From a virus: DNA of 20,836 nucleotides. Where the stretch lies: IMG/VR virus record IMGVR_UViG_3300025601_000159, positions 1-20,836 of that record. The stretch is one strand, 5' to 3'. Position 1 is the stretch's first letter. Each line of letters starts with the position of its first letter. The notes below the pieces were generated by a model. That model was not told the DNA's origin and made no database searches. It was given only the letters and a program-made list of their open reading frames with translations. Below are positions 1,833 through 15,743 of the stretch, piece by piece. A program made the translations under genes and the position numbers.

Positions 1833-1906
1833 GCAGGTGTAGTTAAACGGTATAACACCTATTTGTGGAATAGAAGTCGGTTGTTCAACTCAACCCGCCT
1901 GTACCA
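1833..1906 (+). tRNA. tRNA-His (GTG anticodon), CCA encoded
   Basis: A full cloverleaf can be drawn. Acceptor GCAGGTG (1833-1839) pairs with CGCCTGT (1896-1902), with G-U at 1:72 and U-G at 6:67. TA fills positions 8-9. D stem GTTA/TAAC encloses AACGGTA. Anticodon stem 1858-1862/1870-1874 has a C-A mismatch at its top, and its loop TTGTGGA puts GTG at 1865-1867. T stem GGTTG/CAACC encloses TTCAACT. Discriminator A73 is at 1903, followed by CCA. GTG reads His codons CAC and CAU. Most bacterial tRNA-His has G-1 paired to C73; here A73 is present although the base before position 1 is a G. A73 is known for tRNA-His of a clade of alphaproteobacteria. Confidence 0.85.
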
Positions 1907-2143: not shown

Positions 2144-3088
2144 TTATTCAACTTTTGACACAGCATCCTTTAAATTTTCTAAAGGTACTAAACCTAAGTC
2201 TAATAGATAACCTCTTTTACCTGCGGCTTTTTTAGAAGTAAACTCTTTTACATATTCATCAATACCTGGTATGACACCAATGTGTTGATTTTTTACATAA
2301 AAGAATAATGGTCTACTTATTGGATAAGAACCATCTTGTATTGATTCTAAAGATATTTCTACATCTTCAATTGTATGTGCTTGAACTTTATCCATTGAGT
2401 TATCGTAATAAGAGAAACCAAAAATACCAAAGTATTGTGGCTCACCTACTAACTTGTTAATAATCAAAGTATCGTTTTCACCCACTTCAATAACTGGTCC
2501 ATCTTCTCTTAAAAGATAACAAGCCTTTTTACCTTTTTCTTTTAAGATTTCTTCTGGACAACCTTTTTTCATCACTAGACTATTCCAAGCATCTCTTGTA
2601 CCAGATGTTGCTGGTGGAGTTAGAATTGCTATTTTATAGTCTGGTAAACTAGGATCAATATCTGACCATTTAGTTGGTCTAGGACCTAAGTCAGCCATTG
2701 CTTCCCATAAGTGTTTTTTTGTAAAGTTATATTCTTTACCTTTTACAGAACTTGTAAATGCGATACCATCTAATCCTACTATAACTTCAGTAATATCTGT
2801 GACACCATTATTTTTACAAAGTTTTATTTCTTTTGATTTGATCTTTCTACTTGCGTTTGACATATCGGGTGTGTTTACTCCGATACCAGCACAAAATAAT
2901 TTCATACCACCACCAGTACCTGTAGATTCAATTACAGGTGTTTTAAACTTTCCTGACTTACCAAATCTTTCTGCTACAACTGTTGAAAATGGATATACGG
3001 TAGAACTACCAACTATATTAATTTGATCTCTTGCTTGTGCTGTTATTGTCATCAAAGACATTATAAAAGCGATTACTAATAATCTCAT
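2144..3088 (-). CDS. pstS: PstS-type phosphate ABC transporter substrate-binding protein
   Basis: A 314-residue periplasmic phosphate-binding protein. Residues 1-19 form a signal peptide (MRLLVIAFIMSLMTITAQA) with likely cleavage before RDQINIVG. Phosphate-site motifs of the family are present: GSSTVYPFS at 27-35 and STGTGGGMK at 55-63; later come a PATSGTRDAW segment and a YYVGxx-like region (FFYVKNQHIGVIPG). AGGAG precedes the ATG. No pstC, pstA or pstB is in this window, so it would work with the host transporter. pstS is a well-known auxiliary metabolic gene of marine T4-like phages, thought to support phosphate uptake during infection. A Pho-box-like direct repeat lies about 50 bases upstream. 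Confidence 0.93.
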   Translation of the reverse strand: MRLLVIAFIMSLMTITAQARDQINIVGSSTVYPFSTVVAERFGKSGKFKTPVIESTGTGGGMKLFCAGIGVNTPDMSNASRKIKSKEIKLCKNNGVTDITEVIVGLDGIAFTSSVKGKEYNFTKKHLWEAMADLGPRPTKWSDIDPSLPDYKIAILTPPATSGTRDAWNSLVMKKGCPEEILKEKGKKACYLLREDGPVIEVGENDTLIINKLVGEPQYFGIFGFSYYDNSMDKVQAHTIEDVEISLESIQDGSYPISRPLFFYVKNQHIGVIPGIDEYVKEFTSKKAAGKRGYLLDLGLVPLENLKDAVSKVE

Positions 3089-3138
3089 CTTATCTCCTAT
3101 GTTTGTTAAGACTTAAAGTATTTACCTTTTCTTTTTAG

Positions 3139-3159
3139 ACTTTAACAAAACTTTAACAA
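3139..3159 (-). promoter_or_regulatory. Pho-box-like direct repeat upstream of pstS
   Basis: On the minus strand the 10-mer TTGTTAAAGT occurs twice with a period of 11 bases (plus strand 3139-3148 and 3150-3159). Two direct repeats at 11-bp spacing are the architecture of PhoB boxes, and TTTAACAA units with 3-bp gaps resemble the cyanobacterial Pho box. A weak -10-like TAAATA lies about 13 bases downstream and the pstS ATG about 50 bases downstream. Control of phage pstS by the host phosphate response is known in cyanophages. The assignment here rests on architecture and position. Confidence 0.55.
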
Positions 3160-3283
3160 TTCTCTTTTCGTCTTTAGGTTGTTTCTCAATTAGCTTAAGG
3201 AAATAAATGGTGAGTAGTGAGTTGGGTTGGTAGGAGGTGTATTCGCTTCGTTTCTTATTCACAAAGTTTACTTTTATTTAGTA

Positions 3284-5724: not shown

Positions 5725-6174
5725 ATGAAATATAATAGAAACTTAAACCTTGATATTGATAATAACGATTATTATTATAGAATCAACAAAAACAAAAACA
5801 ATCATATCGTACAACAAAAAGTAGACAGACCACAATATCTAAAAGATGATATAATGAGATTATCAACAAATGAGTCACTTGATACGATTAGTGAAGTGTC
5901 GCCAGTTGTAGTTGATAATTGTTTAGAAGAATTTAAAAGACAAAATTTTAAAGAAGTAGTATCTTTAGTATTGTCTTCTTTAAGACCACATGAAGAAAGA
6001 GTATTGCGTTTACGATTCGGTATAAACACAGAAGAACATACCTTAGAAGAAGTCGGCGTGAAGTTTCATTTAACAAGAGATCGAATTAGACAAATAGAAG
6101 CGAAAGCGTTAAGAAAGTTAAAACACCCTTCTCGTTCTAAAGAATTGAAAGACTTTCTATCTCAATGTTTATAG
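5725..6174 (+). CDS. Stand-alone sigma-70 region 4 protein
   Basis: A 149-residue protein whose C-terminal half is unmistakably RpoD-like. Residues about 60-100 resemble the end of region 3.2 and region 4.1 ([25 protein letters not shown]). Residues 106-145 are region 4.2 ([19 protein letters not shown], then [20 protein letters not shown]), including the helix-turn-helix that reads -35 boxes at about 112-133. Residues 1-55 are Asn/Tyr/Asp-rich and unlike sigma region 2, so there is no -10 recognition or core-clamp domain. It is therefore not a complete sigma factor and is unlike T4 gp55, which lacks a normal region 4. It may bind the beta flap or -35 DNA to redirect or block host sigma. It is the second gene after a consensus early promoter. 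Confidence 0.9.
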
Positions 6175-7768: not shown

Positions 7769-7858
7769 TTAGTTATCTATCCTCTCATAGCCACCGCTTA
7801 TAGTCGTTCCTACACGCTCTAGCAGCGATTCTTCAGCGATTCTCGGAGTGTATCCCAT
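7769..7858 (-). CDS. 29-aa coupled mini-ORF
   Basis: An ATG at 7858 overlaps the stop of the upstream hub gene as TAATG, the coupling style of this operon. It encodes a 29-residue peptide beginning MGYTPRIAEESLLERVG and ending in ISGGYERIDN, stopping 4 bases before the next ATG. AGGATAG near its 3' end may be the ribosome binding site of the 82-aa gene. It may be a real small protein or a coupling device. Confidence 0.35.
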   Translation of the reverse strand: MGYTPRIAEESLLERVGTTISGGYERIDN

Positions 7859-9333
7859 TATACCTCATCTCCTTGGTCTTTAAGTATATTATCGTCTAAA
7901 TCGTATTGTAATATGTTTAATCTGTCTTTGTTGTTTCTTTCTGACAGTGTATCTAAATCTTCTTCTGGATATGAATCCTTAACTGCGTCTTTAATCATCT
8001 CTATGTTCATCGCATGGTAATCGTTTACTGTGTCTATGCTATGTCTGATTGATTTGACTAGGTATCTGCCAGATAGAAAAGGGTCGTTATCGTAGGGATT
8101 ATCTCTTCCCATTGGCTCGTATGCTGGCATTTCAAACGCAACTAAATCACCACATGAAATACCAGTAAATCCTGGGACATCTATTGATATGTTCATTGTT
8201 TCAAATGACAGTCTTTGTGATAATCGTTTTGGTGTGGTCTCGTGGTAATTTGGCATCTCTGCGTTGTTATGTATATTACTTGTATCACTTAAAAAGTATA
8301 ATGTGCCTTCGGGAAAATCACTAAATGACTTACCTTGTTTGTAATTAAACAGTGGCAGTATACCTTTGCCATCTGTCTTACTTCCTTGTCCATCATGTTC
8401 TGTATGAAATGCTTTAGGATACTCTGTTAGATAATCAAAATCTGTTTCTTTAAATGTCTTGTTGAAATTGTCATGTGATACGACTTTACTGTTATAGATA
8501 CCGTTTCTTAAATTCTTTAGTGTATCAAATTGACTGTTGATTTGAAAGCCTTTAACTGTCTGCATCTCTTTTACAACTTGTCTATTGCCTGTTTCATCTC
8601 TTATGTTTGCCGGTGTAGGACGATACAGCGCCACTACTGGTCGTGCTGTTGTATCTGTACTCGCCAACATACTCTCATATGATTTAAAGTGAAATCCAAG
8701 TGCGTTTTCAAAGAACATCATACCTGGTGTGTGATGTTTCTTACTTTCTGCTGACTTACAAAACAAATCCAATGTTTCAAAGGGTCGTATTCTTGGTATG
8801 ACAAATTTACGAATACCTTTTGTTTCTTCTAAAATTAATGTCTTGTCACTGTCTAAATTGTTTCTGACTACTTTCAATACATTATTGTCTATGCTGTCTT
8901 CAAATGCGTTCTTTACTTTGACTTGTTCATTTGTAATCATTTCTTTACTTGCGAAGTTAAGTACATAGATTTGAGTACGAGGATTTAATCCTTGTCTATT
9001 TGAAATCTTGTAGATATGCATTGGGTGACCTGTGGCTGTGGTAAAGTCATATGCTCTACTTGTTCCAGGTGTAAACAACTTAAATTCTATTTGTTCAAAG
9101 CCAGTTAGTGGTAAGTGATTGGGAACATTCTGTGCGTCTGTTAAGACAATGTTGCCTGATAGAGTTTTGTTTGTAATACTTTCATATACATTCAACTCAG
9201 TCACAAGCGACCTTACACTTATTCTTTTAGGTTTGTTTTGACCTTCTGACGATTGGTATGAAACTAACTGGACATCTGATAAAGAATATTGTCCAGCTCT
9301 GTTTAGTTGTTCTGTGTTAATATCATTGTACAT
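7858..9333 (-). CDS. Baseplate hub protein (gp27-like position), 491 aa
   Basis: A 491-residue structural protein. The N-terminal region (about 15-130) has SLVTELNVYESITNKTLSG, then GNIVLTDAQNVPNHLPLTGFEQIEFKL split over several strands, typical of tail hub beta-barrel domains. The mid region has IRPFETLDLFCKSAESKK and MMFFENALGFHFKSYESM, found in hub proteins that make the gp27-like ring. The C-terminus is acidic. It lies between gp53 and gp5, where T4-like marine phages carry the hub that anchors the gp5 spike. I do not see clear sequence identity with T4 gp27; the assignment is by strand pattern, size and order. Confidence 0.65.
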   Translation of the reverse strand: MYNDINTEQLNRAGQYSLSDVQLVSYQSSEGQNKPKRISVRSLVTELNVYESITNKTLSGNIVLTDAQNVPNHLPLTGFEQIEFKLFTPGTSRAYDFTTATGHPMHIYKISNRQGLNPRTQIYVLNFASKEMITNEQVKVKNAFEDSIDNNVLKVVRNNLDSDKTLILEETKGIRKFVIPRIRPFETLDLFCKSAESKKHHTPGMMFFENALGFHFKSYESMLASTDTTARPVVALYRPTPANIRDETGNRQVVKEMQTVKGFQINSQFDTLKNLRNGIYNSKVVSHDNFNKTFKETDFDYLTEYPKAFHTEHDGQGSKTDGKGILPLFNYKQGKSFSDFPEGTLYFLSDTSNIHNNAEMPNYHETTPKRLSQRLSFETMNISIDVPGFTGISCGDLVAFEMPAYEPMGRDNPYDNDPFLSGRYLVKSIRHSIDTVNDYHAMNIEMIKDAVKDSYPEEDLDTLSERNNKDRLNILQYDLDDNILKDQGDEV

Positions 9334-15078: not shown

Positions 15079-15213
15079 AGTAGTTTCAGGATTACCACCA
15101 GCTTTCTGTCTTAATCTTGGATCTCGTTCTACATTGTCAAGTGAGCGATCTCTGGGTATACCTACTCGTATGTCGTATCCACCAATTCTTTTTCCTCCTC
15201 GTAAGATAGCTAT
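15079..15213 (-). other. Probable ancestral N-terminal coding segment of gp54, start codon ATA
   Basis: In frame with gp54, 45 codons read IAILRGGKRIGGYDIRVG, then IPRDRSLDNVERDPRLRQ and KAGGNPETT before the ATG at 15078. The sequence looks like real protein. The first codon ATA (15213-15211) follows AAGGGGG by 8 bases, where MAILRGG would be a natural start. A second strong signal, GAGGAGG, precedes ATT by 7 bases. The ATA overlaps the TAG of the homing endonuclease in CTATAGC. A G in place of this A would restore ATG. Confidence 0.55.
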
Positions 15214-15743
15214 AGCTGTATCCCCCTTTCGACTCTCCAGTATTTTCTAGCAGTCGGTCTGCTTATATTTAAATCTTTACACATTTCTATTAAACTCTTA
15301 TAAACTTTTCCTTTATAAATTCTTTCTTTGGCACCTATACCTAATTTGCCATACATATGATTTCCTTCACCTGACATCTTTTCTGATGTATTTAATCTCT
15401 TTGCTCTTTCTATTGCGCTCTTACTCATATTCTCTTTCCACTCTTGTGTGAAAGTTCTTGTTGAACCTATCGCAACTGGTGTTTTTATTCCACCTGGCAT
15501 AATATTGTAATAACCATACTTCTTAATATATTTATCTTCTTGTTCAAACGCATCACTACCCTCATATATGGTTTTGACACTAAAATTCTCTTTGCCATAT
15601 TTTCTTATAGCATTATGTAAAGGCCACTTCGCACCACTTCTAGCAGTTCCCAAATGACATCTAAATCTTTTCATCATAGGTTGCGATGTAAATCCAACAT
15701 AACTGTGGCTATTTAATTCGTTTGTAATCTTATATACTATCAT
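15210..15743 (-). CDS. GIY-YIG homing endonuclease (free-standing)
   Basis: A 177-residue site-specific endonuclease. The N-terminal GIY-YIG nuclease domain (1-85) has VYKITN at 3-8 as the GIY strand, YVG at 15-17 as YIG, an Arg-rich helix (MKRFRCHLG), Glu67 in AFEQED as the likely metal ligand, and YYNIMPGG. A middle NUMOD3-like segment (QEWKENMSKSAIERAKRL; GEGNHMYGKLG) and a C-terminal helix-turn-helix of the NUMOD1/IENR type (YKSLIEMCKDLNISRPTARKYW) bind DNA. It sits between coupled late genes with no room for a group I intron core, so it is a free-standing homing gene. Its ATG overlaps a 22-aa ORF as ATGA. Confidence 0.9.
   Translation of the reverse strand: MIVYKITNELNSHSYVGFTSQPMMKRFRCHLGTARSGAKWPLHNAIRKYGKENFSVKTIYEGSDAFEQEDKYIKKYGYYNIMPGGIKTPVAIGSTRTFTQEWKENMSKSAIERAKRLNTSEKMSGEGNHMYGKLGIGAKERIYKGKVYKSLIEMCKDLNISRPTARKYWRVERGIQL

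Follow-up and report, generated by a model that had tools for sequence, protein, structure and literature searches.

A conserved inverted Pho-type box at fixed distance from a promoter-like core before pstS in T4-like phages related to Pelagibacter phage Mosig

The window, i.e., the whole stretch of DNA analyzed here (20,836 nucleotides), is a 20.8-kb viral record and comes from a T4-like relative of Pelagibacter phage Mosig. Matches in Mosig EXVC030M, which was isolated on Pelagibacter ubique HTCC1062, were found for 19 of the 32 window ORFs tested, and the PstS protein encoded in the window is 67% identical to that of Mosig and 57-62% identical to PstS proteins of Pelagibacteraceae. From these matches and identities we infer a host within SAR11, a group that is among the most abundant marine bacteria. 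The pstS gene is a classic viral metabolic gene. Its product in the window scores 140 bits with Pfam PBP_like_2 (cut-off 27) and 135 bits with TIGR02136, which is under the cut-off of that family (206.6). Residues S28, S29, T30, S80, G163 and T164 are invariant in 14 aligned sequences and were paired, by motif and order, with Ser32, Ser33, Thr34, Ser83, Gly174 and Thr175 of a SAR11 PstS structure (PMC12421899); the placement of Thr61 is uncertain.

Elsewhere in the window, a tRNA-His (gtg) gene at 1833-1906 (+) is convergent with pstS, and an ORF at 15210-15743 (-) is GIY-YIG endonuclease-like by eye. Positions 5725-6174 (+) encode a phage protein of 149 aa that contains sigma-70 region 4 (PF04545, 56 bits) and most resembles the C-terminus of RpoD; it is found in two of ten related viral records and is absent from Mosig.

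The pstS gene and its upstream region contain the following features:

2144 to 3088, minus strand: pstS, phosphate-binding protein of 314 aa (Pfam PBP_like_2)
3094 to 3098, minus strand: probable ribosome-binding site of pstS, AGGAG, read from the sequence
3119 to 3124, minus strand: -10-like core TAAATA, GGTAAATACTT in the window and GTTAAATACTT in most relatives
3125 to 3138, minus strand: spacer of 14 nt between box and core, a length that recurs in 50 of the 51 viral loci with an inverted box
3139 to 3160, plus strand: inverted Pho box of 22 nt, pointing away from pstS and scored with a SAR11 matrix; its half-sites of 11 nt each are ACTTTAACAAA (3139-3149) and ACTTTAACAAT (3150-3160)
3122 to 3262, minus strand: short ORF of 46 aa with a GTG start, the last codons of which cross the box and the stop codon of which, TAA, lies within the core

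Identical copies of ACTTTAACAA occupy positions 3139-3148 and 3150-3159 of the plus strand, 11 nt apart from start to start, and the pstS start codon is 50 nt from this repeat. The initial annotation had described a perfect 10-mer repeat with a period of 11 about 50 bases before pstS, and its coordinates agree exactly with those found here. Such perfect 10-mers of period 11 occur twice in the window, whereas 60 simulated windows had 0.017 on average and never more than one. The other one, CAGCGATTCT at 7823-7843, is located just past the 3' end of the ORF at 7858-9333. An ORF like the 46-aa one of the window is present in L002, L003, L004, L005 and L012 and is shortened in L007. Coding constraint as the origin of the repeat was rejected, as the box is kept without the short ORF in other lineages. 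Since the box does not lie inside a short ORF outside the lineage of the window, it is conserved as DNA.

For a footprint, 29 pstS promoters, i.e., those of the window, Mosig and 27 IMG/VR loci, were aligned on TAAATA and thinned to 16 non-redundant ones. Six of 34 loci, with upstream DNA or gene start missing, had been left out (L006, L009, L028, L033, L034, and L035), as was L031, which has a PstS of 41% identity and upstream DNA with no such box. On the pstS strand, TATTAAAnTTTTGTTACA-N14-GTTAAATACTT is present in 16/16 relatives; the 14-nt stretch is mostly free in sequence, the length from box to core is constant, and conservation drops upstream of the box. The core (T0 A1 A2 A3 T4 A5) is invariant in all 16. 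The repeat is perfect only in the window and in L002; the half-sites of most relatives differ, with the 11-nt register kept in every one of the 16 promoters. This conservation across relatives is stronger evidence than the repeat itself. A substitution-tolerance test gave no discrimination between registers: 27 of 48 minor letters were tolerated in register, 7-29 in other registers, and up to 34 on the opposite strand. The idea of a generic phage promoter was discarded, as the composite of box and core is found at pstS alone, except that two patterns each have a single stray match in Mosig. A promoter directed outward, away from pstS, was also considered, and no conserved core was found on that side in the 16 aligned promoters. 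In Mosig (L036, 11850-12001), pstS and a gene with the annotation UDP-2,3-diacylglucosamine hydrolase are arranged divergently, and TATAAT is present on the side toward which the inverted box points.

A half-site matrix was made from 12 SAR11 pstS promoters (36 half-sites, consensus TCTGTAACAAA), with phage data excluded and also without L038, which has no anchor, and L070, which was mis-anchored. The window box scores 24.5 bits with this matrix, compared to a best score of -13.5 on the pstS strand, and is the sole match of ≥11 bits in the window. An antisense match at one position was found in all 16 non-redundant phage promoters (11.9-24.5 bits, p ~0.003-0.007 for each in 300 shuffles), with scores of ≤1.7 bits on the pstS strand. 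Viral DNA totaling 326 kb has 38 matches of ≥11 bits, of which 29 represent the pstS element and nine lie elsewhere. One of the nine, a forward Pho-like match in Mosig (107701-107722, minus strand), 67 nt before the gene for an ssDNA-binding protein, scores 15.7 bits, which is equal to the score of Mosig's pstS site. That a matrix derived exclusively from SAR11 singles out the window box makes its designation as a Pho-type box well supported by sequence. The earlier proposal of a Pho-box-like site before the phage pstS is borne out in that SAR11 pstS promoters carry like half-sites of 11 nt.

The matrix is useful, not clean. In a complete SAR11 genome of 1,437,930 bases, eight sites reach at least 17.1 bits, and the 24.5 bits of the window box are reached once. 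The top site, with 25.5 bits, lies in the pstS-pstC gap. Another, with 18.3 bits, precedes a phnS2-like gene that scores under the cut-off of its family, and a site of 17.2 bits is located inside the neighboring permease gene of what is a phosphonate-transporter-type operon. Five of the eight sites have no evident phosphate link, including those near a PhyH gene, regA, and an ABC ATPase gene. A strict Pho pattern identified eight sites in six of eight genomes, five of them in pstS promoters (L121, L123, L125, L127, and L128) and three elsewhere (L122, L124, and L126). When a phosphonate-transporter gene was sought in 10 further genomes, distant matches were found in two. With ≤2 mismatches, the composite is present in at least 112 of 147 SAR11 genomes, a backwards control being about equally frequent by eye among the matches listed, so that this match rate carries no information. 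In the comparison with host pst and phn sites, as suggested in the initial annotation, half-sites are shared and matches are found in the pstS-pstC gap and before the phnS2-like gene; the boxes of SAR11 pstS genes are forward. A further sequence, CAACTAAAAAGTTA, is conserved directly upstream of the half-sites in SAR11 pstS promoters, e.g., in L059 and L063.

In all 16 non-redundant phage promoters, the box is antisense to pstS and points away from it, a direction that had escaped the initial annotation. A wider scan of the best 80 of 224 viral relatives, which includes the loci of these 16 promoters, left 76 with upstream DNA after L260, L263, L292, and L295 were dropped, and 75 were classified, L265 being too short. 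Within this sample, the box is inverted in 51 loci and forward in nine, and 15 have no box at 11 bits; after thinning (n = 50), the respective numbers are 30, nine and 11. Where PstS is ≥61% identical, 41 of 42 loci are inverted and one is forward, and where it is <61% identical (n = 33), 10 are inverted, eight are forward and 15 are without a box. Bacterial pstS genes (n = 80) have a forward box in 59 cases, no box in 21, and an inverted one in none. The box is forward in 45/45 SAR11 cases, which include the training set of the matrix, and in 14 of the 35 other, independent ones, with the remaining 21 being without a box.

In 50 of the 51 inverted loci from the best 80 of 224 relatives, the 22-nt box is followed by TANATA, i.e., TAAATA, TATATA or TAGATA, at a distance of exactly 14 nt; the sole exception, L327, may be a chance match. 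As yardsticks, TANATA is found at 14 nt for one of 74 matrix matches in the SAR11 genome, and, when Mosig is divided into 615 segments of 230 bp, four contain any match of ≥11 bits. The locus L321, on a contig with a T4-type major capsid gene, was classed as having no box (10.7 bits), yet has the inverted layout. Among the nine forward viral loci, six (L306, L318, L319, where it follows the third half-site, L320, L326, and L333) have TATAAT, TATAAG or TATACT 5-7 nt past the last half-site, a layout that resembles the canonical Pho promoter. L323 has TATAAT at 10 nt, and L324 and L276 have no clear -10. In L276, an inverted box of 11.1 bits is accompanied by a forward box of 18.2 bits, which overlaps both spacer and core. 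This locus was not taken to have exchanged its inverted box cleanly for a forward one, as the inverted box persists together with TACATA at the core position.

On a PstS tree of 70 sequences, with L321 labeled inverted by its layout, the inverted label changes six times, and at least five of these changes are forced by well supported branches. Inverted boxes are found in a 20-row pelagimyophage clade, including L276 with both boxes, in a clade of L308-L312, and in L313, L321, and L328, the latter of which adjoins the forward-box loci L318 and L333. Since the label appears in separate PstS lineages, the layout arose, or was passed from one pstS gene to another, on more than one occasion. An argument based on helical phase was set aside because, depending on the hexamer chosen as the -10, its distance to the 18-nt box is 14, 15 or 17 nt.

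Three to four genes with a Trans_reg_C domain are present per genome in six SAR11 genomes, and Mosig has none. In all six, the strongest Trans_reg_C match lies ~6 kb from a pst site. One SAR11 protein, L134, passes TIGR02154 (308.5 vs. 296.2) and was identified as PhoB. Because the target is pstS and the host pstS shares the site, PhoB appears to be the likeliest binder of the box. We consider it highly probable that phosphorylated host PhoB (PhoB~P) controls the phage pstS via the inverted box, whatever the sign of the regulation, and we favor activation with moderate confidence. A SAR11 host would phosphorylate PhoB when phosphate is low, PhoB~P would occupy both half-sites in a head-to-tail arrangement directed away from pstS, and, at a fixed distance, it would recruit RNA polymerase to the TAAATA core. 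The resulting pstS transcription would maintain phosphate uptake while the cell is infected. It is from the DNA that we infer the binding of PhoB, the activation and the benefit to the phage. Activation is favored because other viral pstS genes have forward boxes, L276 has an additional one, and reversed PhoP boxes of Salmonella can be active (see below). An argument against it is that the inverted orientation and the distance depart from the canonical layout, and strict spacing was stressed in an E. coli study (PMC10294691).

According to the same study, PhoB activates or represses depending on its position (PMC10294691), which is consistent with the less likely possibility that PhoB~P represses. 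The inverted box would then cover a sigma-70 -35 sequence, and the phage pstS would be shut in a starved host that makes its own PstS, whilst the phage copy would be of use in cells that were phosphate-replete at infection. A half-site reads TTGTTA on the pstS strand, 17 bp from TTAAAT, in the majority of the 16 promoters, and Salmonella PhoP did not activate from reversed boxes at 12 and 23 nt (PMC3335776). However, both the -10 and the -35 match weakly, regulation in the opposite sense to the host pstS is less expected, forward boxes of the activating layout are found at other viral pstS genes, and L276 has a forward box added. The spacing of TTGTTA-17-TTAAAT would also fit a plain sigma-70 promoter, with an accidental likeness to a Pho box and a pstS gene free from phosphate control, but this is improbable. 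The hexamers match in 8/12 positions in most relatives, the window has GTAAAT, and no 9-of-12 sigma-70 match was found at the box-core site of the window. Against this reading, conservation (ATTAAAnTTTT) extends well upstream of a -35 hexamer, a score of 24.5 bits with the host matrix is reached once in 1.44 Mb, and the composite is confined to pstS apart from the two stray Mosig matches mentioned above. It is very improbable that a different host regulator of the OmpR family (ChvI-, OmpR- or CtrA-like) occupies the repeat. The number of Trans_reg_C genes in each of the six SAR11 genomes would allow for it, and the TTAA-N7-TTAA of the repeat resembles a CtrA site, but the gene context and the host pstS promoters point to PhoB. 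Of the 21 Trans_reg_C matches, four, representing four regulator types, were compared with the CtrA model, and among these none attains its cut-off (best score 127.7 of 350), which disfavors CtrA within this set.

A T4-type late promoter, NATAAATA, is clearly recognizable in the Mosig genome (L118-L120), where 38 of 201 upstream regions contain it vs. 3.2 expected, and the Mosig annotation includes a late sigma factor, a late accessory protein, and a sliding clamp. In a pelagimyophage study, late-promoter prediction was unsuccessful (PMC7029224). The likeness to the pstS element resides in the core TAAATA, and GTTAAATAC differs from NATAAATA by one letter. Nevertheless, the chance that the core is a variant form of the late promoter of the phage is minimal. 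NATAAATA is not present before pstS, where the window has GGTAAATA and most relatives have GTTAAATA, and the element differs by a T for A at the second letter, the deviating position never being A in the 16 promoters (15 T, one G). The form found at pstS, NTTAAATA, is not enriched in Mosig (3/201 upstream regions vs. 5.7 expected), and the conserved upstream box would be left unexplained. If the core is not a late promoter, it would be served by a host-type polymerase or would be a weakened late promoter that needs PhoB. Region 4 of sigma is the usual contact of PhoB, and the phage polymerase with gp55/gp33 lacks it. A tentative variant of PhoB control is a phage-only class of PhoB promoters, in which box direction and core type are coupled and host PhoB works with the gp55/gp33-modified polymerase: forward boxes would mostly go with a TATAAT-like -10 at 5-7 nt and inverted ones with TANATA at 14 nt. 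The TANATA core of the inverted boxes is about one letter away from the phage's own late promoter. If such a class exists, pstS would require the phage program and host starvation together.

Host phosphate control of phage pstS has been reported for cyanophages; the inverted box at a fixed spacing is new in the literature covered. No description of the element was found in the open-licence literature covered on Pelagibacter or pelagiphage pstS, pelagimyophage phosphate, EXVC030M, and inverted Pho boxes; phosphate terms were not found in PMC7892664, a paper on EXVC030M, and a paper on Bacillus RNases gave no useful information on box direction. Under PhoB control, the regulation of phage pstS by the host phosphate sensor would extend from cyanophages to SAR11 phages. 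If PhoB activates from the inverted box, the geometry would be unlike any in the literature covered; alternatively, these phages may invert the phosphate response.

A Pho box consists of two 11-nt direct repeats with seven conserved and four less conserved positions (PMC4415409), and such repeats are shared by the window element and the canonical PhoB promoters of E. coli pstS and phoA. In E. coli, the box is forward with ~10 nt between the 18-mer box and the -10, whereas the window box is inverted with 15 nt from the 18-nt box to the core. Thus, the element resembles a Pho promoter but fails two canonical features, direction and spacing, and the match to PhoB binding architecture claimed initially is not supported. 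PhoP of Salmonella, a related response regulator, activates mgtC, pagC, ugtL, and other genes from reversed boxes (PMC3335776). A reversed PhoP box was active at 27, 37, and 48 nt and inactive at 12 and 23 nt, with 14-17 nt absent among the reverse positions shown as tested, and natural boxes of architecture V are located 30-58 nt upstream and are accompanied by a second one (PMC3335776). The SAR11 host pstS promoters share the half-site consensus, but have three half-sites on the coding strand where the phage has two antisense ones, and no host -10 or shared core was found at them. Control of pstS by host PhoBR has been reported for the cyanophages P-SSM2 and S-SM1, although predicted phage Pho boxes were termed unreliable (PMC10976474). 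In P-SSM2, two to three repeats before PSSM2_247-pstS, with TATAAT downstream, are likely boxes along the direction of transcription, a weak reading since a minus-strand match elsewhere in the gap equals it (15/16). These cyanophages likewise combine a phage pstS with a host-type Pho box; in comparison with P-SSM2, the box of the window is inverted and its probable host is SAR11.
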